Assembly (NCBI GenBank): GCA_029821875.1
Contig: JALGXW010000038.1
Span: 1 to 35,060 of the forward strand
Length of the DNA stretch: 35,060 nt
DNA from: Candidatus Hebobacterum abditum
Lineage (GTDB): Bacteria > Armatimonadota > Hebobacteria > Hebobacterales > Hebobacteraceae
Direction: 5' to 3'
Positions 5,656 through 17,187 of the stretch are shown piece by piece. Position numbers and translations under genes: made by a program. How positions within the stretch are numbered: position 1 is the stretch's first letter; every line of letters begins with the position of its first letter. Below the pieces are notes generated by a model. The model made no database searches and was not told the origin of the DNA. It was given only the letters and a program-made list of their open reading frames with translations.

Positions 5656-5886
5656 CGATGGACTAGATGGGAATACTACCCGCGCGGCGCCCTCAAAGGC
5701 CATCTGGCACGGCCGTTCTGGGGTCGTCGTGCTCGCGCGGGCTGGTGCCCGTGTTACCGGTTTGGCGGTCTAGACCTTGTGTCCGGAACGCAAGGGCGAT
5801 TACAATCAACAGCGTCTGGCGAACTCGCGCGGGAGTTCATCCTCGAGGGTGCTGCGCGTTCGCGGATGGACGCAGCACACCGTGAG

Positions 5887-7308
5887 ATGGTGGTGTCAGG
5901 AAACGAGGCAAAGGGGAGCTCTGCTACCAGAGCTCCCCAAGAAGCAAGCGGGCGTAAGGGAGGGCTAGTCAACCGGCTCGCCTCGGTGCACTTGTTGCTG
6001 TGGCTTGTAGCGATTCTTGCCGCCGCCATGGCCGTTGCTACAGTGGTGCCGCAGAAGGCACCCGCGGAGGTGTACAACCACGCTCTCGGACACTTGATTG
6101 GGCCGCTGGTTTACCGCTCGACCCTCCGCGATATCTATGGTGCCTGGTGGTTTATCGGCGCTTTTGGACTCGTCGCGCTGAGCTTGCTGGCTTGTAGCCT
6201 GCGACGTGCCGGGCAGCTTCTGCGAGGGCGCGGGGGCGCGACGCATGTCAGTCGGCGTGACGTTGCAGCCCGTCCCAATCGGTCTGAGTGGCGGATCGCG
6301 CTGGAGGCTGACGAGGCCGCTTCAGCGTTGACTAAGGGCCTTCAGAAGGCCGGCTACGCGGTGCAGCCCGCGAAGGCAGATCAGAAGAGATCCAGCGGTC
6401 TGACTGCGCGGCGAGGCCCTGCAATGGCGTGGGGGGTGGTCATCATGCACGTCGGCATGGCGCTTGTCCTTCTCGGGGCCGCCTACGGACGACTCCCCGC
6501 GAACTCATATAGTGCTGTCGCTGACCTCGACGCGGGGGAGTCGTATCAAGTCCAGGCCGGTGGGGACACATTCTCGGTGCGGCTCCTCGATGCCGGTCAG
6601 GAGCGAGATGAAGAGGGCCGTCCGACTCGCTTCTGGGCGGAGGCGGAGATCATCGAGGATGGAGAAGTGGTGAAGTCGGGACTGATAGAACCGAATCGGC
6701 CTCTCCGCTACCGCGGAGTCAACACTGTTCTGCAGAGCCTTTCCTCCGCCGGCTATGTTGTGGCGGTGTCCAAGGGGGAGGCCAGGAGCGCTGTGCCCGT
6801 GGTCTTCGGTCCAGATGGCAGCGTGGCCATGCTGGAGACCGTGCGCCAGCTGGAGGATCCGCCCTGGGTCGTCTTCATCCACGATTTCCGGTCCTCGGCA
6901 GGCGGGGCCGACGCGGCTCCGGCTGCACACGTCTTCGCCGATCCGACGGGGCAGTTAAGCCACAACTGGGAGAAGGTCGGTTGGGTTGGGTCAGAAGGGC
7001 TGACCTACTCGGGTGTACACTTCCGTCTCGTGCCGGGAGGACAGGCTGCGCAGCTGCTACTGGATCGTGACATAGGCGTTCCCCTCGTCTGGTTCGGTTT
7101 CTGCATCTTCGTGTTGGGCTCGGTGCCCCTAATCGGCATCCGCCGCCGGACGCTCCTCGCTGTTGTCTCGGCCAGGGGTGCCGCGTGCAGCGTCCTCTTT
7201 GGAGGCAGCGATGCTCGTGCGGAACGCGATTTCGAGCGGGCGATCAGCGATCTGGGCGTGAAGGCCACCAAGATCGGGGACGTCGTTACAGCGAGCGATC
7301 ATGAGTGA
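5887..7308 (+). CDS. resB: ResB/Ccs1-type cytochrome c maturation protein
   Basis: Membrane component of system II cytochrome c biogenesis. With CcsA it moves heme across the membrane and attaches it to CXXCH cysteines of exported apocytochromes. The conserved core opens with RLASVHLLLWLVAILA (first helix) and ends that helix at VVPQ, as in the family. Further helices follow around YGAWWFIGAFGLVALSLLAC and WGVVIMHVGMALVLLGAAYG, the latter with a conserved heme-ligand-type histidine. After a large outside domain a last helix (VWFGFCIFVLGSVPLIGI) is followed by a short cytoplasmic tail. The start is uncertain: the frame is open from a GTG at 5779, with ATGs at 5866 and 5887. The first codons use atypical codons and include a strong hairpin, so I chose 5887 (473 residues). 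The stop is nine bases before the next gene. Confidence 0.88.
   Translation: MVVSGNEAKGSSATRAPQEASGRKGGLVNRLASVHLLLWLVAILAAAMAVATVVPQKAPAEVYNHALGHLIGPLVYRSTLRDIYGAWWFIGAFGLVALSLLACSLRRAGQLLRGRGGATHVSRRDVAARPNRSEWRIALEADEAASALTKGLQKAGYAVQPAKADQKRSSGLTARRGPAMAWGVVIMHVGMALVLLGAAYGRLPANSYSAVADLDAGESYQVQAGGDTFSVRLLDAGQERDEEGRPTRFWAEAEIIEDGEVVKSGLIEPNRPLRYRGVNTVLQSLSSAGYVVAVSKGEARSAVPVVFGPDGSVAMLETVRQLEDPPWVVFIHDFRSSAGGADAAPAAHVFADPTGQLSHNWEKVGWVGSEGLTYSGVHFRLVPGGQAAQLLLDRDIGVPLVWFGFCIFVLGSVPLIGIRRRTLLAVVSARGAACSVLFGGSDARAERDFERAISDLGVKATKIGDVVTASDHE
5913..5938 (+). repeat. Perfect 11-bp inverted repeat near the resB start
   Basis: GGGGAGCTCTG, a four-base loop (CTAC), then CAGAGCTCCCC: a perfect 11-base-pair stem in the mRNA, 26 bases long. 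It lies 26 bases after the chosen resB ATG, in codons upstream of the conserved protein core. No U-run follows, so it is not a standard terminator. It could be an attenuation or mRNA-stability hairpin, or an operator palindrome. Confidence 0.8.
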
Positions 7309-7317
7309 GGGAGGACT

Positions 7318-8292
7318 ATGAGGGAGAGAATGGGCTTGTGGGTCGCGGCCGTGGCGTTGCTGCTGGCAGTAGCGGCTCGGACCCCCTCGGCACTGTCGCC
7401 GACCGCGTACGGCGCCGAAGATGCGAAGTACATGGGTCCGAAGCTGTGCGTAGCCTGCCATCGGGGCACACACGCCGACGTGATCGAGGCCGTCAGCGCG
7501 AGCACCCATGAAAGCGCGATGTGGAAGGTCGAGGACGAAGACGAGGATCATCCTCTTGTCGGCGACTTCGGGAGCGCCCCGCCCTTCCCAAAGGAGAAGA
7601 TCGCCTATGTGCTGGGAGTTGGCCGCAAGTACCAGGCCTACCTCGACGCCGATCTGCAGGTCCTGCCAGCGGAATGGTTCGTCAAGGACGGTGCGTGGCG
7701 CCCGCGCGAAGCTGTAGACGCCACGCGTGAATGCCTCGGCTGTCACACCACCGGCTTCGACCCCGAGACGAAGAAGTGGGCGGCCCTTGGGGTGACGTGC
7801 GAGATGTGCCACGGTCCAGGATCAGTCCATGCTGCGTCGGCTGATAAGAATGAAACCATCGTCAGGCCGCAGGGCCTCGATCCCGCTCGGCGTGTGATGA
7901 TATGTGGGCAGTGTCATTCACAGGGGAAGAGCAAGGACGGCGCGCACGCGTTCCCGGTGGGCTACCATCCAGGGGACGACCTCGGCCAGTACTTCGTGCT
8001 CGACGCGGAGGTGGACTCGGACGCGGTCAACACTCAGTACAACGAGCTAGTGCAAGGCGCCAAGCATCTCGCGGGCGGCACGGTCTGCTCTACCTGTCAT
8101 GAGGCACATGGTCCCTTGGAGGGCCTGCCGAGCCAATTGAGGGCAGCGACGAATGACCTATGCTTGAACACCGACTGCCACGGCGGCAAGCTCTCCGGCG
8201 CGCAGCACGAGCCGGCGGCGCTGCAAGCCGTGACGTGCACCATCTGTCACATGCCGAAAGGAAAGCACTCCTTTGCCGCTCCCGGCGATTAA
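7318..8292 (+). CDS. Periplasmic heptaheme cytochrome c (cytochrome c554-like)
   Basis: Exported electron-transfer cytochrome of 324 residues. A signal peptide spans about residues 1-33 (hydrophobic VAAVALLLAVAA, then an AYGA-type cleavage site). Six CXXCH sites begin at Cys44, 139, 161, 196, 257 and 307, and one site has the wider CX4CH spacing (CLNTDCH, 282-288), giving seven predicted covalent hemes. The opening KYMGPKLCVACH followed by a histidine-bearing helix resembles cytochrome c554-type domains. There is no membrane anchor after the signal, so the protein should be soluble in the periplasm or outside. It sits between resB and ccsA, the machinery that would mature it. The ATG has GAGGGAGG upstream. 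Its redox partner is not evident. Confidence 0.85.
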   Translation: MRERMGLWVAAVALLLAVAARTPSALSPTAYGAEDAKYMGPKLCVACHRGTHADVIEAVSASTHESAMWKVEDEDEDHPLVGDFGSAPPFPKEKIAYVLGVGRKYQAYLDADLQVLPAEWFVKDGAWRPREAVDATRECLGCHTTGFDPETKKWAALGVTCEMCHGPGSVHAASADKNETIVRPQGLDPARRVMICGQCHSQGKSKDGAHAFPVGYHPGDDLGQYFVLDAEVDSDAVNTQYNELVQGAKHLAGGTVCSTCHEAHGPLEGLPSQLRAATNDLCLNTDCHGGKLSGAQHEPAALQAVTCTICHMPKGKHSFAAPGD

Positions 8293-8338: not shown

Positions 8339-9196
8339 ATGAACATTGAGCACACGTTAATCCAGGCCGCGCTTGGCCTCTACGTGGCGGCGCTCGTGCT
8401 GTACGTCGCCGGCTTTGCCTTCGGCTCAGATGGCCCGAAGAAGCTGGCGAGCGCGGCCGCGTGGGGTGGCCTTGCCGCGCAGGCGGGGATGCTCGGCATT
8501 CGATGGAGCCATGCCGGCCGCGTGCCGCTTGTCAGCATGTACGAGTACCTGAACGCATTCGCCGCGATGGTCGTCCTCTGCTATCTCGTCTTCGCGCGGA
8601 GACAGAAGGGCTGGGGACAGGGAGCGCAGGCCCTGGGCGCCATCGCGCTTCTGATCGCGCTATGCCTGCTCGGCTATGGTGTCCGACTGCCGGCGACGAT
8701 GAAGCAAGCCGAGCCCCTCATGCCGGTGCTGAGGAGCTATTGGTTAGTCATTCACGTGTCCATGGCGGTGATCGGCTACGGCGCAGCCGCCCTGGCGAGC
8801 GCACTCGCTTGCCTCTTCTTCGTCAGGACGAAATGGGGCGCTGAGAGCGAGTGGCTGCGCAGTCGGCTTCCCACGGCCTCGACCATCGACCAAGGAGTGT
8901 ATAGATCGGTCCGCTTCGCATTTCCCTTCCTCGCGCTCCTCAACATCACTGGCGCCGTGTGGGCATACTACGCCTGGGGGCGCTACTGGGGTTGGGATCC
9001 CAAGGAAACCTGGTCGCTGATCACCTGGTTGGTCTATGTCTTCTACTTCCACGCGCGTCTGCGTGCGAATTGGCGACCTCCGAAGCTGAATGCCGTTGTG
9101 TTGATTGGACTGGCCACGATCCTGTTCACTTTCCTGGGTGTCAATCAGCTTGCAGCCTTCTCCGAGAGCCTTCACTCCTATGCATCCGGTGGATAG
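8339..9196 (+). CDS. ccsA: CcsA-type cytochrome c heme lyase/exporter subunit
   Basis: Partner of ResB in system II cytochrome c maturation; it handles heme at the outer membrane face. The 285-residue protein is almost entirely hydrophobic, with about eight predicted helices. It has the diagnostic tryptophan-rich WWD domain WGRYWGWDPKETWSLITW (residues 213-230). Candidate heme-ligand histidines lie at 139 (before a helix) and 279 (after the last helix), on either side of the WWD loop as in the family. The ATG at 8339 follows a 46-base gap after the heptaheme gene. The ribosome binding site is weak. Length matches ResC/CcsA. Confidence 0.93.
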   Translation: MNIEHTLIQAALGLYVAALVLYVAGFAFGSDGPKKLASAAAWGGLAAQAGMLGIRWSHAGRVPLVSMYEYLNAFAAMVVLCYLVFARRQKGWGQGAQALGAIALLIALCLLGYGVRLPATMKQAEPLMPVLRSYWLVIHVSMAVIGYGAAALASALACLFFVRTKWGAESEWLRSRLPTASTIDQGVYRSVRFAFPFLALLNITGAVWAYYAWGRYWGWDPKETWSLITWLVYVFYFHARLRANWRPPKLNAVVLIGLATILFTFLGVNQLAAFSESLHSYASGG

Positions 9197-9239: not shown

Positions 9240-10295
9240 ATGAGCAGCCGATCGATCCATCGACTGACTCTCGCCGCGCGGCTGGTGACGATGGTCCTCG
9301 TCTCGGTTGCCGCGACGGAGCAGGTGTCGGGCGCAGTGCGGGGGCCCTCCCGGATGCTGCTCCGAGATGACACGATCTGTCTGGGCTGCCACGAGGAGTC
9401 CGCGCGTGAGAAGGCGGCCCCCGCCGTCGCGGCGGATGAGCTTCGCAGGTCCGCGCACCGCACACTCGTCTGTGTTGACTGCCATAGGGACCTGGACCGG
9501 GTGCCGCACCCGCGCGGGCTAGCGCCGGTTGACTGCGGCGACTGCCATGAGCCTTCGCCGCCGGGGAGCATCGAGGACTCGTATATGAGCCGGCACAGAC
9601 GGGAGCAGGGACAGCCAGACGCGGGGATGCCTGCCTGCATCGACTGCCATGGCGGGCACGACACCTTCCCTGTGCTTGACGCGGGGCCGACGGAGGCCGC
9701 TCGCCTGGTGGATCGGTGCGCGGCCTGCCACCGCGACGTGTGGTCGGCCTACATGAATAGCGTGCACGGGAAGGGGCTCTTGGCCGGTGGCCGTCACGTC
9801 CCTACCTGTGCATCCTGCCATCCCGAACACCTCCAGCAGGGGGCCCAGGAGCGCGCGGGAGTTATCGAGGCAGGGTCCGTCGCGACCTGCATTCCCTGCC
9901 ACGACGACCCTGGACTGCAAGAGCAGTACGCGCTTCCGGGAAACCGCATGTCATCATACCTGGGAAGCTATCACGGGACGGCCAGATACCTTGGAGATAC
10001 GCGAACCGCCGACTGTGTGAGCTGTCACGGCTACCATGACATTCTGCCGTCGAGCGACCCGAACTCGTCCATCCATGTAGACAATCTCGGGGAGACATGT
10101 GGGGGGTGTCACCCGGGGGTGACTGAGAACGTGGCGAAGGGCCGGGTTCACGTTATGGCGACGAAAGAGAGCGGTTCGCTTCTCTACTACATCAACTTCG
10201 GCTTCCGCTGGTTCACATTTGCGGTGATCGGTGGGCTGGTGGGGCACATCGGACTTGAGCTCTTTGGGCGGCTGCGAAGACGAAACGGAGATTGA
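9240..10295 (+). CDS. Membrane-anchored nonaheme cytochrome c
   Basis: A 351-residue exported cytochrome with nine CXXCH motifs starting at Cys47, 78, 99, 133, 160, 190, 217, 259 and 287, so nine predicted c-type hemes. It begins with a basic, then hydrophobic, signal region (about 1-32). It ends with a membrane helix (about 324-343) followed by a short positive tail, so the heme domain should face the periplasm with the C-terminus anchored. The cytochrome b gene starts three bases downstream, which argues that the two form a complex. The frame is open further upstream, but the ATG at 9240 gives a proper signal sequence. No catalytic site for a known reductase was recognised, so a role as quinol-linked electron carrier is inferred. 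Confidence 0.85.
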   Translation: MSSRSIHRLTLAARLVTMVLVSVAATEQVSGAVRGPSRMLLRDDTICLGCHEESAREKAAPAVAADELRRSAHRTLVCVDCHRDLDRVPHPRGLAPVDCGDCHEPSPPGSIEDSYMSRHRREQGQPDAGMPACIDCHGGHDTFPVLDAGPTEAARLVDRCAACHRDVWSAYMNSVHGKGLLAGGRHVPTCASCHPEHLQQGAQERAGVIEAGSVATCIPCHDDPGLQEQYALPGNRMSSYLGSYHGTARYLGDTRTADCVSCHGYHDILPSSDPNSSIHVDNLGETCGGCHPGVTENVAKGRVHVMATKESGSLLYYINFGFRWFTFAVIGGLVGHIGLELFGRLRRRNGD

Positions 10296-10298
10296 CGA

Positions 10299-11252
10299 AT
10301 GCGGGCCGAGCGTCACAGCGGCGTAGAACCGACCGAAGATGGCCCGCCCCAGGGGCTGGGGCGGTCAGCCCTGCTCAGGGAGGTGGCCGAACAGCTCCGG
10401 GATGAGCGCAAACGGCTCGAACGCCAGTCCGACTGGCGCGTAATCGCAAGCGCCGAGCAGGACATCGCTGCCGACATTGCGGCTGAAGCCAGGCGTCGGC
10501 TGCAGGAGGCCGTAGCGCGCCGGGCACAGGAGGCCCGCGCGCCAGCGGCCGAGGGTGAACACCAGCGATTCAGCGTGCTCTTTCGCGTCCAGCACTTCGG
10601 ACTCCTCGTGAGCACGCTCGCCCTGATCATAACCGGTCTGCCGCTGCGCTACGCAGAAACGGAGTGGGCTCACGCTTTCTTCCGGTGGATCGGGGGAGTT
10701 CCGGTCCAGGCCGCCACCCATCGCGCGGGTGCCGGTCTGTTGATTGCGGTGGGTGCATTCCACATGTGTTACATAGTCTTCTCCCGCGAGGGGCGACGGG
10801 AGCTGATGGCACTGATCCCGCGGCCGAAAGATGTGCTGGATCTGTTCCGCAACCTCGCCTACTTCGTCGGGCTGGCGCGTGAGCGGCCGAAGTTCGACCG
10901 CTTCAGCTACGTGGAGAAGTTCGACTACTGGGCCGTGTACTGGGGCATCGTCATCATGGTCGGCTCGGGGCTTCTCCTCTGGTCCCCGGAGCTAGCCATG
11001 AGGCACCTGCCGAAGTACATTCTCGATATCTCTCAGGTCGTTCACAGCGACGAGGCGCTGCTGGCCGCGACCGCCATCATAGTGTGGCACTTCTATAACA
11101 CTCACCTCAACCCCGACTCCTTCCCCATGAACTGGGCCTGGCTGACTGGACGCATTTCGAAGGAAGACCTGCGTGAGCACCATCCGCTCGAGTATGACAG
11201 ATACTACGGCAGCGCAGAGGGACATCAGTCCACTGGGGAGTCCCCCGAGTGA
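10299..11252 (+). CDS. Membrane cytochrome b (b561 / formate dehydrogenase gamma-like)
   Basis: Probable diheme b-type membrane subunit exchanging electrons between the quinone pool and the neighbouring c-type cytochromes. The 317-residue protein has four predicted helices (about 98-116, 143-161, 211-229 and 252-268). Histidines placed to bind heme are His99, His155, His249 and His264/His269, in stretches such as VQHFGLL, FHMCYIV and IVWHFYNTH. Residues 1-90 form an unusual, highly charged N-terminal extension, probably helical or coiled-coil and cytoplasmic. GGAG lies eight bases before the ATG. It is flanked by the nonaheme and 28-heme genes, and its stop overlaps the next start (GTGA). The heme count and the direction of electron flow are inferred. 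Confidence 0.85.
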   Translation: MRAERHSGVEPTEDGPPQGLGRSALLREVAEQLRDERKRLERQSDWRVIASAEQDIAADIAAEARRRLQEAVARRAQEARAPAAEGEHQRFSVLFRVQHFGLLVSTLALIITGLPLRYAETEWAHAFFRWIGGVPVQAATHRAGAGLLIAVGAFHMCYIVFSREGRRELMALIPRPKDVLDLFRNLAYFVGLARERPKFDRFSYVEKFDYWAVYWGIVIMVGSGLLLWSPELAMRHLPKYILDISQVVHSDEALLAATAIIVWHFYNTHLNPDSFPMNWAWLTGRISKEDLREHHPLEYDRYYGSAEGHQSTGESPE

Positions 11253-13264
11253 GGCGGCTGTGGTCCAACGTAGGCAGACTCCTAACCAGACGCGTCAAGG
11301 TTCCGCTCGTGCCTCTGCGAGTGCCGCTCGTCGTTCTGCTCCTGCTCGGCGGGGTCGTCGTGGGGGTGCCGACGGGCGCCGCGGTAATCGTGGCGACTAA
11401 CCAACCGATGTTCTGTAACTCCTGCCACGAGATGAGCCTGCACTACGCTACCTGGAGGCAGTCCTCGCACAGCGAGGTAACCTGCGAAGAGTGCCACCTG
11501 ATGCCCGGGACGATGAACATGTTGAAGGGGAAGATCGCCGCCTTCCGCCAGGTGCGGCTCCACGTCGAGAAGGACGTCAAACCGTCCATAATCCAGGGGC
11601 ACGTGCCCGATGAGAACTGCAAGCATTGCCACCCCACGACGCGGAAGCTCGTGGCCTACCACGGACTCAAAATCACGCACAGAGATCACTGGAACATGGG
11701 GGTATCCTGTACCTTCTGCCATGACCGTGTTGCACACGGGCCTCGCTGGCAGTTCGAAGGCGTCTCCACGGAGGAGCAGCTAACGCAGGCCACCACTCCG
11801 TCCAAGTATGCGCCAAGCATGGAGGACAAGTGCTTCACGTGCCATGACGGAGAGAAGGCCTCGAACAAGTGCTCCACCTGCCACGTGACGCTCGGCGAGC
11901 GACGTCCGAGGGCCTTCGACCCAGAGTGGGTGGCCGCGCACCGTGAAGAGGTGCAACATGCCGGATTGCGGGACTGCCGTCGATGCCATCAGGAGACCTT
12001 CTGTGACAGGTGTCATCGTGAGGCAAACCCACACACAGCCGATTGGGTGCCGACCCACCCCGAGGAAGCGAGAGACAATCCCCAGCGGTGTTTCACGTGC
12101 CATGTTGCCCCCGGCGAAGCCCAGACGACGAACGCGATGGACCTCGCCTTCTGTCGCGCGTGTCACTCGCTTCGTCGGGAGCACTCCGGGACAGACTGGA
12201 CCCAGCGCCATGGGCAGGAGGCACTCACCGACCCGACCTCGTGCATTCAGTGCCACGAGCAGAGCTGGTGTTCGGACTGCCATTCGCTGATCCGCCCTCA
12301 CCCGGCGGAGTGGCGGATTCGCCACGTGGCAGATGCCAGCCGCGATCGGTCGGGCTGCGGCGTTTGCCACACGGCGGACTTCTGCGACGCCTGCCACCGC
12401 GGCAAGAAGGGCACTCCAGGCTCCCACGACGCCGATTGGCTGCGCCAACACAAATACGACGCAGGCCGCGGAGAGGAGTCATGCCAGGTCTGCCACGAAT
12501 CCGACTTCTGCCGTGCCTGTCACGTCGAGCGCGCTCCCATGGATCACGATATTCGCTGGCTGGCCAAGCACGGAGGGGAGAGCACGGAAGAGCAGTCCGC
12601 TTGTCTGCTCTGTCACGAGGACGAAGACTGCAGTCAATGCCACGGTATGACGATGCCACATCCGAAGCTGTGGCTGGCCTCACACCACAAAGCGGCGGCC
12701 GAGAACAGGGAGCAGTGTGAACGCTGCCATCGCAGGGATGCATGCGACGTCTGCCACCGCGGCGCCTTCCCCGATTCGCATCTGCCCTCGGACTGGGCGG
12801 ACGGCCATGGTGCGGCTGCACAACAGGAGGGCGCCGAGTGCTACCTCTGCCACCGGGAGGCGCTGTGTGACTCCTGCCACGGCTTGACGATGCCACACCC
12901 GGCGGCATGGGAGGCCACTTCCCACGGTGATGCAGTGCAACGGGACAAGGCTACATGCTGGCGGTGTCATACTGAGGAAGAGTGCCAGGCATGCCACGGC
13001 CTCGCCATGCCCCATCCCGGCGACTGGGTGGCCGAGCACAGCGCCGAGGCGAACGCGGCACCGGGGACTTGCCTGAGCTGTCATGCCGCAGACTCTGACG
13101 ACTGCACCGTGTGTCACAAAGCTCTCACCCCAAGTGACCACCGCGAAGCGCAGTGGGGGCAGGAGCACGGCGTGGCGGGCGCCTCGAAGATGGAGCTCTG
13201 CGCTCTTTGCCACGGTAAGAGCGCGTGTGTCGAGTGTCACGAAGCAAGCGCCGGGGCAGCATAG
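11249..13264 (+). CDS. 28-heme cytochrome c with NapC/NirT-type membrane anchor
   Basis: A 671-residue protein with 28 CXXCH motifs, about one heme per 24 residues. Residues 1-48 contain a single membrane helix (VPLVVLLLLGGVVVGV region) followed directly by NQPMFCNSCHEM, the opening of NapC/NirT/NrfH quinol dehydrogenases. Motif cysteines start at 56, 79, 124, 154, 195, 208, 243, 252, 281, 302, 332, 341, 370, 379, 412, 421, 452, 461, 490, 499, 531, 540, 570, 579, 608, 619, 651 and 660. The first six form the NapC-like head; from 243 on they come in pairs. Start is GTG with GGGGAG upstream, overlapping the cytochrome b stop. The hemes should face outside the cytoplasmic membrane. The likely role is to carry electrons from quinol or cytochrome b across the envelope; no enzyme active site was recognised. 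Confidence 0.93.
   Translation: MRRLWSNVGRLLTRRVKVPLVPLRVPLVVLLLLGGVVVGVPTGAAVIVATNQPMFCNSCHEMSLHYATWRQSSHSEVTCEECHLMPGTMNMLKGKIAAFRQVRLHVEKDVKPSIIQGHVPDENCKHCHPTTRKLVAYHGLKITHRDHWNMGVSCTFCHDRVAHGPRWQFEGVSTEEQLTQATTPSKYAPSMEDKCFTCHDGEKASNKCSTCHVTLGERRPRAFDPEWVAAHREEVQHAGLRDCRRCHQETFCDRCHREANPHTADWVPTHPEEARDNPQRCFTCHVAPGEAQTTNAMDLAFCRACHSLRREHSGTDWTQRHGQEALTDPTSCIQCHEQSWCSDCHSLIRPHPAEWRIRHVADASRDRSGCGVCHTADFCDACHRGKKGTPGSHDADWLRQHKYDAGRGEESCQVCHESDFCRACHVERAPMDHDIRWLAKHGGESTEEQSACLLCHEDEDCSQCHGMTMPHPKLWLASHHKAAAENREQCERCHRRDACDVCHRGAFPDSHLPSDWADGHGAAAQQEGAECYLCHREALCDSCHGLTMPHPAAWEATSHGDAVQRDKATCWRCHTEEECQACHGLAMPHPGDWVAEHSAEANAAPGTCLSCHAADSDDCTVCHKALTPSDHREAQWGQEHGVAGASKMELCALCHGKSACVECHEASAGAA
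11975..13240 (+). repeat. Eleven tandem two-heme protein repeats
   Basis: Within the 28-heme gene, residues 243-664 are eleven units of about 38-51 residues starting at Cys243, 281, 332, 370, 412, 452, 490, 531, 570, 608 and 651 (the last one truncated). Most units have the pattern CX2CHX4CX2CH, so the two hemes are nine residues apart. The exceptions are units 2 (21 apart) and 10 (11 apart). Each pair is followed by a histidine/proline and tryptophan segment such as MPHPxxW and then another histidine before the next unit. Units starting at 452, 531 and 570 are the most alike (GMTMPHP, GLTMPHP, GLAMPHP), suggesting the latest duplications. Confidence 0.9.
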
Positions 13265-13325
13265 GTGCGCCCGGCGTGGGAATGGAGCAGAAGCGAGGAG
13301 CCAGCCACCATTCCGGAGCAGCGGC

Positions 13326-14462
13326 ATGACGGCGCAACCCGAGCAAACTAGGGAGAAGATGCACTCACACGAAGCACAACACGATGTATCGGGACAGAAC
13401 GCTGCCGAGAGGCAAAGGGAGGACGACTGGCGACGGCCCTCGCTTGTGTCTTGGAATATCACGCGCCAATGCAACCTGACGTGCGCTCACTGCTATCGCG
13501 ATGCGACGGAGGAGGCAGACCCAGAGGAGCTGAGCACCGAAGAGGGCCTGCGCCTCATCGAGGAGATCGCCGGGGTCGCCTTCCGGGTCCTTATCCTGTC
13601 GGGCGGGGAACCACTGATGCGAGCGGATCTGTACACGCTCGTGGAGAAGGCGCGCGCCGTCGGGCTCAGACCGGTGCTGGGGACAAACGGGATACTCATC
13701 ACCCCCCAGGTGGCCCGGCGCCTACGCGAGACAGGGCTGGCCCGGGCGGGCATCTCCTTGGATGCCGCGGACCCGGACTACCACAATGAGCTGCGGGGTT
13801 CGCCCACCGCCTGGCAGGATGCGGTGGCCGGGATGAAAGCCTGCGTCGATGCAGGTCTCCCCTTCCAGATCAACACGACAGTCACTCGCCAGAATCAAGA
13901 CCAGCTCCTGCAGATAACCGACCTCGCCCGTGACCTCGGAGCTGTTGGGCACCACGTCTTCTTCCTCGTGCCTACCGGCCGTGGTCGCGACATCGCCGAC
14001 GACATGGTCGAGGCCTCCCGCTGCGAGCAGCTTCTCGCCGCATTGCTCAGTCGGCAGGACGAAGTTGGCATCGAGATAAAGCCGACGTGCGCGCCACAAT
14101 TCGTCCGCATCGCCGACCGCCTGGGCATATCCACGCGGTTCCACGCTGGGTGCCTGGCCGGCCGAACCTACTGCGTGGTCATCCCGAACGGCGACGTCCA
14201 CCCCTGCCCGTACCTGCCGCTGGCCGTGGGCAACGTTCGAAAGACCCCCTTCTCCGAGCTCTGGCGATCGGCGGAGGTGCTGCGCCGTCTTCGCGAGGAC
14301 CCTCTCGAGGGAACCTGCGGGCGCTGCCACTGGGGCAAGAGGTGCTTCGGGTGTCGGGCGCGCGCCTACTACGCAACGGACGGCAACTACTTGGCAGAGG
14401 ATCCGTGGTGCACGCTTCGGTCCCCACGCCAACTCAGCGGCGAGAGCTGCGCTCGGCCGTGA
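13326..14462 (+). CDS. ahbD: Radical SAM heme synthase AhbD (NirJ2-like)
   Basis: Probable last enzyme of the siroheme-dependent heme pathway, converting Fe-coproporphyrin III to heme b by oxidative decarboxylation of two propionates. The 378-residue protein has the radical SAM cluster motif CNLTCAHC (Cys49, 53, 56), the SAM-binding GGEP (about 93-96), and a cysteine-rich C-terminal region (Cys255, 276, 283, 294, 331, 334, 340, 343, 362) for auxiliary cluster(s). The SWNITRQCNLTCAHCYRDA opening resembles NirJ2/AhbD rather than AhbC. The other Ahb enzymes lie downstream, which supports the call. The ATG has GGAG seven bases upstream; a second ATG at 13359 is possible. It follows the 28-heme gene by 61 bases. 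A radical SAM enzyme for another tetrapyrrole or peptide cannot be fully excluded. Confidence 0.8.
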   Translation: MTAQPEQTREKMHSHEAQHDVSGQNAAERQREDDWRRPSLVSWNITRQCNLTCAHCYRDATEEADPEELSTEEGLRLIEEIAGVAFRVLILSGGEPLMRADLYTLVEKARAVGLRPVLGTNGILITPQVARRLRETGLARAGISLDAADPDYHNELRGSPTAWQDAVAGMKACVDAGLPFQINTTVTRQNQDQLLQITDLARDLGAVGHHVFFLVPTGRGRDIADDMVEASRCEQLLAALLSRQDEVGIEIKPTCAPQFVRIADRLGISTRFHAGCLAGRTYCVVIPNGDVHPCPYLPLAVGNVRKTPFSELWRSAEVLRRLREDPLEGTCGRCHWGKRCFGCRARAYYATDGNYLAEDPWCTLRSPRQLSGESCARP

Positions 14463-14481: not shown

Positions 14482-17187
14482 GTGGCCAGCTCCGGCGAGA
14501 TGGCAGGCCGAGAGGCCCCTGTGCTGACCAGCCTGGCGACGACGACTTCGGCCCGCAAGGTTGCGAAGGAACGCCGCGTTGCCGTTCTCGGCGGCGGGCC
14601 GGCGGGGGCCTTCTGTGCGCTCTGGTTGTGCCGTCTCAGGGCCCAGGCGGGCGCGAAGATGGAGATCGTCGTCTTCGACCACAAGAGCTTCGACAAGCTC
14701 GGGCCGGCCGGCTGCAACATGTGTGCGGGGGTAATACCGGACTCGCTCGTCCGGAACATGCGTATGCTCGGCATGGAGCTGCCCGAGCGGGTCATCCAGC
14801 GGCGCATCGGTGGGTGCTACCTGGAGACCAAGGGGGGCTCGGTCGACCTCCCTGTGCCCGACCATACCTGCCTCTACGCAACGTTCCGAGGCCCCGGCCC
14901 GCTCGGGGTCTACCCAGATGCTCACGAGGGTTTCGACTGGTACCTTCTGGAGGAAGCTCGGAAAGGTGGGGCCGCTCACGAGAGCAGACTGGTCACGGAT
15001 GTCCGCATGCCGTCCGAGGCAGAAGAGCCGTTCGAGATAGTGTGCAACGATGGTTTCAGAACGGAGGTGGACATCGTCGTTGGCGCCTTCGGGGTCAACA
15101 GCAACCTGGGTACCGTCTTCGAGCGACTCGCCTTTGGCTATCGCTCGCCGAAGACACTCCGTGCCCGCCAGGCGGAGATGCCTGTCGACCCGGAGTCCAT
15201 GCGCCATCCGATGCGCGATCGGATGATGATATTCGCCACGGGACAGCCATCCATCAGATATGCTGCGATCACGCCCAAGCGGCGTCACGTCACAGTCACC
15301 TTGATCGGCGAGAATCCTAGTCGCGGTGATATGGAGGCGTTCCTCCACTCCGACATGGCCGCGAAGCACTTCCCGCCAGGATGGTCCCCGCCCAGCCGCT
15401 ACTGCTCCTGCGCTCCGCGCCTTCCTGTGACGGCTGCCCGCAACCCTATCCATGACCGCCTCGTGGTCATCGGTGACGCCCACGCCTCGCGTTATCTGAA
15501 GAACGGAATCGAGTCCAGCTTCTATACAGCGATGTGGGCGGCCAACGCGATCGCGAGGAGCCAAACCTCCGAGCGAGAGCTGCGGGAGCACTACCTGAGC
15601 ATCTGCCGCCGGACGTATGTGCGAGACAACGTGTTCGGTCGAGTGCTGCTGAGAGCGCACGATCTCATATCTCGCTCCGCAATCATCGCGCAAGCACACA
15701 TCGAGGTGGCGCGCGCGGAGCAAGCGACGCCGGGTAGACGGAGGCTTCTGACGGACGTCTTGTGGGGCACGTTCACCGGAAACATGCCCTACCGAGCGCT
15801 CATGCGGAGGGCCGTGGATCCCCGTCTCCAGCTGCGGCTCGCGCAAGCTCTACTGTCCGCTCTGCGCACTCGCATCAGCTCTCCCCGTCCCGGGCGGCCG
15901 GCTGAGACATCTCCGGCCCGCAGCCGGCCGGGCACGCGACGCAGGGTAATCGTCATCGGCGGCGGCCCCGCCGGCACCGCCTGCGCGATAGCACTGGCGC
16001 GCGGGGCCCAGGGGTCCGAGCCTGCGCCTGAAGTCACTCTGGTTGAATCAAAGCAGTTTGGCGAGCGACAGAACCAGTGCGCAGGGGTTGTCTCACCTCC
16101 AGGGCCCGCCATGATCTCCCGGACGCTGGGTACGCCCGTGCCCCAAGCGCTGTTCCAGCGGCGCATCAGTGGCTACGTCCTCCATGGAGCAGCCTGTTCG
16201 ATCTACCTCAGCGGCGAGGAATTCGGTGAGTCATCTTACGTCCTGCGACGCGTTGAGCTCGACCGCTTGCTCCTCCAGCGGGCAGAGGCGTGCGGCGTGA
16301 AGATCACTCACGCCCGTGCAACAGATGTCGAGTTCGCCTCTCGCGGCGCTGTGGTCTACACGGAAGGTGGCAGCCTGGAAGGGGACGGAGTAGTCGGCGC
16401 CTTTGCCCTCGACGAGACCATGGCCCGGGCCTTCTCTCGCCGCACGGGCTACCGGCCGCCGGCCTCGCTTGAGACTCTTGCCTGCAAGATACATCCGAAA
16501 GGACTGGACTTCATCCCAGGGCTGCTGGAAGACAGCATTCACGTCTACCTTCCGAGGGCAGCTCGCGTGGACTTCGGCGCACTCATTCCCAAGGGTAATC
16601 ATATAGTTGTGATCATCGCCGGCGCGGGCATTGGTGCCGGAGATATGGCGGAGTTCATGGCGTCACCTGACGTGGCCAGGCTCCTCCCCGAAGACGGCCG
16701 GACGGAGGGACTATACAAGGGCGCCTTCCCCCTCGGGCCGGCAAGGGGTCTCTACGGCAACTCCTACGTTGTCATCGGGGATGCGGCAGGCATGGTCCGG
16801 CCCTTCAAGGGAAAGGGCATCAACTCCGCCATAGACGGCGGACACAGATGTGCCGAGTCCATTCTCACCAATGGCTTCTCGGGGGAGGCCTTCGCCGTGT
16901 TCGCCCGGAGCCAGCAACACCTGACCGGAGACGTTTGGTACGGCCGGCTCGTGCGTCGACTTGTCATGCTGACCTCGAAGCATGGCCTGCTCGACCCGAT
17001 AATCCAGCATGCCAAGACGAGCGCCCCCCTTTCCCAGGCGTTGTTCGATTGCATCTCGGGACGAACAACGTACCGCGACGTCGTGTTGCGAGGAGAGAAC
17101 CTCAATTGGCTTCCAGCCGCAGTGTGGCGGTGTGCCGCGTGGAAGGGGGGCACACGTCTGGCAGGCAGCAGAGGAGAGCGGAAATGA
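14482..17187 (+). CDS. Fused double FAD-dependent oxidoreductase (geranylgeranyl reductase family)
   Basis: A 901-residue protein made of two homologous flavoprotein halves. Half 1 has the FAD-binding VAVLGGGPAG near residues 33-42; half 2 has VIVIGGGPAG near 489-498. Both share a CAGV motif (CNMCAGVIPDS; NQCAGVVSP) followed by a matching QRRI.G segment. The second FAD motif is canonical in half 2 (VVIGDAAGMVRPFKGKGI) but altered in half 1 (VVIGDAHASRYLKNGI). This family (COG0644) reduces isoprenoid double bonds or acts as electron-transfer flavoprotein dehydrogenase. The substrate here is unknown. Neighbours suggest quinone or isoprenoid metabolism (a prenyl-synthase-like gene ends the run) or tetrapyrrole metabolism. 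The start may be GTG 14482 (used), ATG 14500 or GTG 14521. The stop overlaps the next start. Confidence 0.82.
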   Translation: MASSGEMAGREAPVLTSLATTTSARKVAKERRVAVLGGGPAGAFCALWLCRLRAQAGAKMEIVVFDHKSFDKLGPAGCNMCAGVIPDSLVRNMRMLGMELPERVIQRRIGGCYLETKGGSVDLPVPDHTCLYATFRGPGPLGVYPDAHEGFDWYLLEEARKGGAAHESRLVTDVRMPSEAEEPFEIVCNDGFRTEVDIVVGAFGVNSNLGTVFERLAFGYRSPKTLRARQAEMPVDPESMRHPMRDRMMIFATGQPSIRYAAITPKRRHVTVTLIGENPSRGDMEAFLHSDMAAKHFPPGWSPPSRYCSCAPRLPVTAARNPIHDRLVVIGDAHASRYLKNGIESSFYTAMWAANAIARSQTSERELREHYLSICRRTYVRDNVFGRVLLRAHDLISRSAIIAQAHIEVARAEQATPGRRRLLTDVLWGTFTGNMPYRALMRRAVDPRLQLRLAQALLSALRTRISSPRPGRPAETSPARSRPGTRRRVIVIGGGPAGTACAIALARGAQGSEPAPEVTLVESKQFGERQNQCAGVVSPPGPAMISRTLGTPVPQALFQRRISGYVLHGAACSIYLSGEEFGESSYVLRRVELDRLLLQRAEACGVKITHARATDVEFASRGAVVYTEGGSLEGDGVVGAFALDETMARAFSRRTGYRPPASLETLACKIHPKGLDFIPGLLEDSIHVYLPRAARVDFGALIPKGNHIVVIIAGAGIGAGDMAEFMASPDVARLLPEDGRTEGLYKGAFPLGPARGLYGNSYVVIGDAAGMVRPFKGKGINSAIDGGHRCAESILTNGFSGEAFAVFARSQQHLTGDVWYGRLVRRLVMLTSKHGLLDPIIQHAKTSAPLSQALFDCISGRTTYRDVVLRGENLNWLPAAVWRCAAWKGGTRLAGSRGERK

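Follow-up and report, generated by a model that had tools for sequence, protein, structure and literature searches.

A 28-heme cytochrome with a NapC-type head and a diheme-repeat tail, a probable quinone-linked wire in an Armatimonadota bacterium

We analyzed a 35,060-nucleotide stretch of DNA from the uncultured bacterium Candidatus Hebobacterum abditum (Armatimonadota; contig JALGXW010000038.1, positions 1 to 35,060), which is called the window below and belongs to an assembly of 103 contigs and 4.3 Mb. The subject of this work is a gene in the window that encodes a cytochrome with 28 CXXCH motifs in one chain, made of a membrane-anchored head of the NapC/NrfH kind, a short linker and a long tail of repeated diheme units. 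An Omp85 protein is encoded in the same genome, and the cell therefore most likely has an outer membrane (diderm).

The 28-heme gene and its product

The gene and the parts of its product are as follows.

11249..13264, + strand: 28-heme NapC-headed cytochrome ("NapC-wire"), 671 residues, GTG start (motif count, profile searches, relatives)
11249..11743, + strand: NapC/NrfH-like head with hemes 1-4 (CXXCH at 56, 79, 124, 154; PF03264, PDB 2j7a, alignment)
11306..11398, + strand: single N-terminal hydrophobic segment, predicted membrane anchor (about residues 20-50; hydropathy)
11672..11884, + strand: cytochrome c7-like stretch, residues 142-212, hemes 4-6 (PF14522, E 8e-18)
11975..13261, + strand: tail with 22 hemes in 11 tandem diheme units, most of them 38-43 residues long (motif spacing, unit alignment)

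The motifs begin at residues 56, 79, 124, 154, 195, 208, 243, 252, 281, 302, 332, 341, 370 and 379 (hemes 1-14) and at 412, 421, 452, 461, 490, 499, 531, 540, 570, 579, 608, 619, 651 and 660 (hemes 15-28). All 56 cysteines of the protein fall within them, and there are 32 further histidines. Shuffled sequences of the same composition had a mean of 0.4 CXXCH motifs and a maximum of 4 (2000 trials), so that the count given in an earlier note on this DNA, 28 motifs in 671 residues or about one per 24, holds. Six hemes would lie before residue 243 and 22 in the tail, and the density is 24.0 residues per heme in the whole protein and 19.5 in the tail.

The GTG start shares four bases (GTGA) with the stop of the upstream cytochrome b gene, as is common within operons. 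Compared with a fragment from the same genus, the protein shows 90% identity, a dN of 0.048 and a dS of 0.20, so that it is under purifying selection. Judging from the start overlap, the purifying selection and 15 full-length family members, the reading frame is genuine and not a sequencing or frame artefact.

These members comprise full-length relatives in 14 of the 291 genomes of the phylum, the present one included, and one from a further metagenome-assembled genome (MAG), L036; all of the sequences come from MAGs. Eleven of them have 28 hemes, one has 30 and three have 32. They are 621-728 residues long, and their identity to the 28-heme protein drops to about 37%. Eight of the nine close named matches are labelled Armatimonadetes or Armatimonadota, and the ninth, L036, is labelled Bacillota. 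The L036 MAG has a close full-length wire together with CbcL-like neighbours; its label points either to horizontal transfer or to a mislabelled or contaminated bin.

Hydropathy revealed one strong hydrophobic segment in the protein, ahead of heme 1. Residues 29-110 matched the Pfam family Cytochrom_NNT (PF03264) with 44.5 bits against a cut-off of 24.1, the sole match above the cut-off in the genome, and the nearest solved structure of the head was NrfH (2j7a), at E 5e-9 when the protein was the query and E 1e-10 when the family profile was. These results agree with the earlier suggestion of an N-terminus of the NapC/NrfH type. The CxxCHxM signature of NrfH heme 1 was present at heme 1 in 14 of the 15 members. 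Lys95 aligned with NrfH Lys82, and lysine occupied that position in 9 of the 10 members aligned. Profile searches of the neighbouring genes found no NrfA beside the 28-heme gene. By these comparisons only the head places the protein in the NapC/NirT family, and the protein is not NrfH. Membership in this family makes it likely that the head oxidizes quinol. Between head and tail, the c7-like diheme linker contributes hemes 5 and 6.

The tail runs from residue 243 to the C-terminus, with its units arranged head to tail and following the consensus C..CH...fC..CH....PH...W...HG..A. Residues 243-664 had earlier been singled out as a separate part; a dense and regular heme tail does begin at 243, but it extends past 664 to the end of the protein. 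Across 107 units, taken from the tail of the protein itself and from those of relatives, both CXXCH motifs and both further histidines were 100% conserved, and the proline and the tryptophan were conserved in 87%. Because both extra histidines are invariant, each tail heme has a conserved second histidine to choose from, and the tail hemes are therefore predicted to be low-spin, bis-histidine, electron-transfer hemes, with no open catalytic heme among them. Met62 and 26 histidines outside the motifs did not vary among 10 full-length relatives, and nearly every heme of the protein would thus have a conserved distal ligand. To our knowledge, few heme-carrying repeats are as compact as this diheme unit of 38-43 residues. 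The tail had no match in Pfam, NCBIfam or PDB beyond the CXXCH pattern. Homology of the tail to MtrC or other multiheme proteins was rejected, since the PDB profile matches were weak (E 0.006-0.4) and followed the CXXCH pattern.

The diheme tail is also found on other proteins. One kind has a cytochrome b6-type head and 13-17 hemes; it is encoded on contig C81 of the same genome (6578-8425 of locus L112, - strand; 13 CXXCH in the part covered), and an ortholog directly follows the wire gene in the locus of the closest relative (L041, 12577-14700). Secreted or lipoprotein-like proteins of the phylum carry the tail as well. The DNA pattern of the paired motif had 17 sites in the genome, all of them within three genes, and the reversed pattern had none. 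The occurrence of the same tail on three kinds of head suggests that the tail is a module. We also observed on contig C82 (L113:7631-9019, - strand) a membrane-anchored cytochrome of 462 residues with 18 hemes and the same diheme tail.

Neighbouring genes and the outer-membrane conduit

The 28-heme gene stands among the following genes.

5779..7308, + strand: ResB/Ccs1, cytochrome c maturation, System II (PF05140, E 5e-43)
7318..8292, + strand: secreted 6-heme cytochrome, a possible periplasmic partner or shuttle
8339..9196, + strand: CcsB, cytochrome c maturation, System II (TIGR03144, 210.8 bits, above cut-off)
9240..10295, + strand: 9-heme cytochrome with a signal peptide and a membrane helix at the C-terminus, resembling the periplasmic domain of CbcL (9 CXXCH, homology; frame open from 9105, likely start 9240)
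10299..11252, + strand: FdnI/Ni-hydrogenase-type cytochrome b, resembling the membrane domain of CbcL (PF01292 above cut-off, TIGR01583 below cut-off, homology to Geobacteraceae)
14482-17187, + strand: 901-residue protein with two tandem geranylgeranyl-reductase/MenJ-like FAD domains, possibly a quinone-tail reductase, kept beside the wire gene in L041, L121 and L122
19117-26874, + strand: heme synthesis cluster of the siroheme (Ahb) route, with a HemC-siroheme-synthase fusion, a HemD-methyltransferase fusion, a fused AhbAB-like decarboxylase, HemB, HemL and two AhbC/D or NirJ-like radical SAM proteins

CbcL consists of nine c-type hemes and a diheme b-type membrane domain (PMC9129911). The pair of genes immediately upstream of the 28-heme gene corresponds to this make-up, with 9 CXXCH motifs and a PF01292 domain that would hold the b-type hemes. 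In nearly all loci such a pair adjoins the 28-heme gene or lies close to it, and in four of them (L115, L117, L121, L122) its two parts are, by position, fused in a single open reading frame. A 632-residue protein from a Geobacteraceae MAG, with 9 CXXCH motifs and the same membrane domain, is 33% identical over the fused form.

Three loci of Actinomycetota (L042-L044) likewise have NapC-type multiheme cytochromes beside heme genes of the siroheme route. Rfam gave no match within the window.

Candidates for an outer-membrane conduit were found in the same family of loci. The cluster of the closest relative (L041), like those of L121 and L122, opens with a fusion of 975-1032 residues, whose N-terminal decaheme part lies above the DmsE/MtrA cut-off and whose C-terminal part matches the GSU2204 family and ends in a phenylalanine, as in barrel proteins. 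In L037 and L040, a decaheme protein and a barrel-like protein of 540-555 residues are encoded by separate adjoining genes, directly before the wire gene in L040. A DmsE-type decaheme lies inside the locus in about 10 of the 15 members, sometimes adjoining a barrel gene.

The present genome encodes an ortholog of the L041 fusion on contig C85 (about 11345-14272; L141:6345-9272, + strand), a 975-residue decaheme-barrel protein that scored 202.8 bits with TIGR03508 (DmsE) against a cut-off of 192.2 and whose barrel part matched NF041027 with E 1e-34, below the cut-off. A fusion of this type may be a one-piece conduit of the MtrAB kind. The Pfam model MtrB_PioB found no porin in the genome, and the barrel was detected only with the fused protein of the relative as query. 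Beside the conduit gene (L141:9707-12193, + strand), we noticed an unusual regulator, a single protein that combines cyclic-nucleotide-binding, sigma-54 activator AAA and Fer4_5 membrane iron-sulfur domains.

A small c7 cytochrome of the PpcA kind was not found in the genome, where all PF14522 matches fell in frames of at least 396 residues; other shuttles are possible.

A proposed electron path and its rivals

We think it probable (about 0.65) that the 28-heme protein is an inner-membrane, quinone-linked wire that feeds extracellular electron transfer. The NapC/NrfH-like head would take electrons from menaquinol at the inner membrane, alone or together with the CbcL-like pair, and the electrons would pass hemes 4-6 and enter a rod of 11 bis-histidine diheme units that reaches into the periplasm. 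The tail would then hand them, with no shuttle diffusing in between, to an outer-membrane decaheme of the DmsE/MtrA type; the acceptor in this genome would be the decaheme-barrel fusion on contig C85.

Whether the protein physically spans the periplasm we would put at somewhat below an even chance. The fullest form of the proposal is more tentative: a single polypeptide would lead from the quinone pool to the outer-membrane decaheme with no diffusing carrier, and the width of the periplasm would set the number of hemes near 28, the diheme units serving as a molecular ruler. On the basis of known structures, a review put the number of hemes required to cross a periplasm of about 200 Å at about 27 (PMC7096707), and the 28-32 hemes of the family fit this estimate closely, which is suggestive but no proof. 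Part of the 28-heme count is, however, taken up by the head, which weakens the fit, and the constant heme number may be mere inheritance.

At the level of whole genomes, a DmsE-type decaheme (E < 1e-20) occurs in 14 of the 14 genomes of the phylum with a wire and in 84 of the 277 others (Fisher p 1e-7), although this test ignores relatedness and the general cytochrome richness of the genomes.

Several further observations weigh against the proposed path. The position of NrfH Asp89 holds glutamine, methionine or a gap in the aligned members, and Asp89 together with Met49 of NrfH has been described as essential for menaquinol oxidation (PMC10654088); oxidation of quinol by the head is for this reason only an inference. 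The match to the NrfH equivalog TIGR03153 reached 54.2 bits, below its cut-off of 134.2. The conduit gene of this genome is on a different contig from the wire gene, and the cluster itself encodes the secreted 6-heme cytochrome, which could act as a shuttle. Structure prediction was also of little help: AlphaFold2 gave a pLDDT of 47 and a pTM of 0.23 for the full protein (10 sequences) and a pLDDT of 64 and a pTM of 0.40 for a stretch of three units (31 sequences), and a fold search with the three-unit model gave no match. The models are poor, and one continuous chain of the hemes therefore stays a proposal.

The earlier note had proposed that electrons are taken up at the membrane and carried outward. 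The adjoining CbcL-like pair and the MtrA-type decaheme in every wire genome of the phylum speak for this proposal, and the lack of conservation at Asp89 speaks against its first step. The note had also raised a surface or extracellular location, which is unlikely; because of the anchor and the NapC head we dropped the idea that the 28-heme protein is itself extracellular. A periplasmic wire anchored in the inner membrane fits better, with the step across the outer membrane left to a separate decaheme-barrel protein.

Other explanations share much of this evidence. The protein might be a quinol dehydrogenase whose tail stores electrons like a capacitor and serves soluble periplasmic acceptors, such as the 6-heme cytochrome or another multiheme enzyme, with no contact to the outer membrane. 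The secreted 6-heme cytochrome is kept in most clusters, electron storage has been proposed for the PCC3 cytochromes (PMC10734462), and the genome encodes an octaheme protein elsewhere, on contig C5. We nevertheless consider storage unlikely, as the regular unit and the near-constant number of hemes point to a defined length and a DmsE-type conduit gene is often present in the same cluster. The octaheme protein itself (L149, - strand) is a 440-residue frame with 8 hemes and resembles, by eye, octaheme enzymes of the HAO type.

The wire could also run inward: electrons drawn from a partner cell, from minerals or from extracellular Fe(II) would enter by the conduit and reach the quinone pool by way of the CbcL-like cytochrome b. 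Direction cannot be read from sequence, the cytochrome b pair would offer a second quinone site, and MtoAB and PCC conduits have been discussed for electron uptake (PMC5566968, PMC10734462). The closest characterized parts, CbcL, NrfH and heads of the ImcH type, act as quinol oxidases (PMC9129911), and we give uptake little credence. A nanowire cytochrome of the OmcS/OmcE/OmcZ type, polymerizing or exported, whose N-terminus merely targets the protein, would account for the many closely spaced, predicted bis-histidine hemes and for the same tail on lipoprotein-type secreted cytochromes of the phylum. It is very improbable, since the N-terminus is no cleavable signal but a conserved NapC head that bears hemes and a membrane segment, and since the tail profile matched OmcS only at noise level (E 0.31).

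Relation to known systems and meaning

In extracellular respiration, the crossing of the periplasm is usually explained by small cytochromes that diffuse. In Geobacter these are the PpcA-type cytochromes, which receive their electrons from inner-membrane quinol dehydrogenases such as ImcH and CbcL. The upstream pair resembles CbcL, and ImcH shares features of the NapC/NirT family with the 28-heme protein; the two differ in heme number, ImcH being a heptaheme cytochrome. Here a 22-heme tail sits on the NapC protein itself, and no PpcA-like c7 was found. By analogy, the protein may work like ImcH and CbcL with a built-in substitute for the diffusing periplasmic carrier. Its best Geobacteraceae matches were 30-32% identical over 100-180 residues.

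The tetraheme quinol dehydrogenases NapC, NirT and NrfH (with CymA) share the anchor helix, the four hemes, the CxxCHxM signature and the lysine at the NrfH Lys82 position; the 28-heme protein adds 24 hemes on one chain, does not conserve Asp89 and has no adjoining NrfA. The C85 protein resembles the MtrAB/DmsE conduits (GSU2203/GSU2204), being above the DmsE cut-off and matching the GSU2204 barrel family, but in this clade the decaheme and the barrel form one polypeptide. With the OmcS/OmcE/OmcZ nanowires the protein shares a predicted chain of closely spaced bis-histidine c-type hemes; those are exported polymers, with heme ligation between the subunits in the OmcS type, whereas the present protein is a membrane-anchored single chain with no detectable sequence relationship to them.

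The nearest precedent is PCC3 of Gallionellaceae and other bacteria, whose periplasmic cytochromes of 21-27 hemes are built from repeats and have been proposed to cross the periplasm (PMC5566968, PMC10734462). As here, the genes near the long, repeat-built wire include one for a porin and one for a cytochrome-b-like membrane protein that reacts with quinone. PCC3 is made up of a separate periplasmic wire, an extracellular multiheme cytochrome, a porin and a conserved inner-membrane protein, whereas the present wire has a NapC head on the same chain and is accompanied by a DmsE-type conduit; by this layout the protein does not belong to PCC3. The 28-heme cytochromes of Methanoperedens and of the Sideroxydans PCC3 were set aside as relatives, having, as far as seen, only the heme number in common with the protein described here. 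The proposal of a periplasm-spanning cytochrome is thus already known from PCC3, and what appears to be new is the NapC head and the wire in one chain. We found no named family with such a NapC-headed long heme layout in Pfam, NCBIfam, PDB or the open-access literature, as the earlier note had supposed.

With the quinol-side head and the wire in one chain, the periplasm-spanning proposal becomes testable on one protein and one gene. The diheme unit, found on three kinds of head, lends itself naturally to study and engineering as a modular wire. These data also point to extracellular electron transfer in Armatimonadota, a phylum in which it has hardly been described, and suggest that in these bacteria a single molecule may take the electrons of respiration over most of the distance to the cell exterior.

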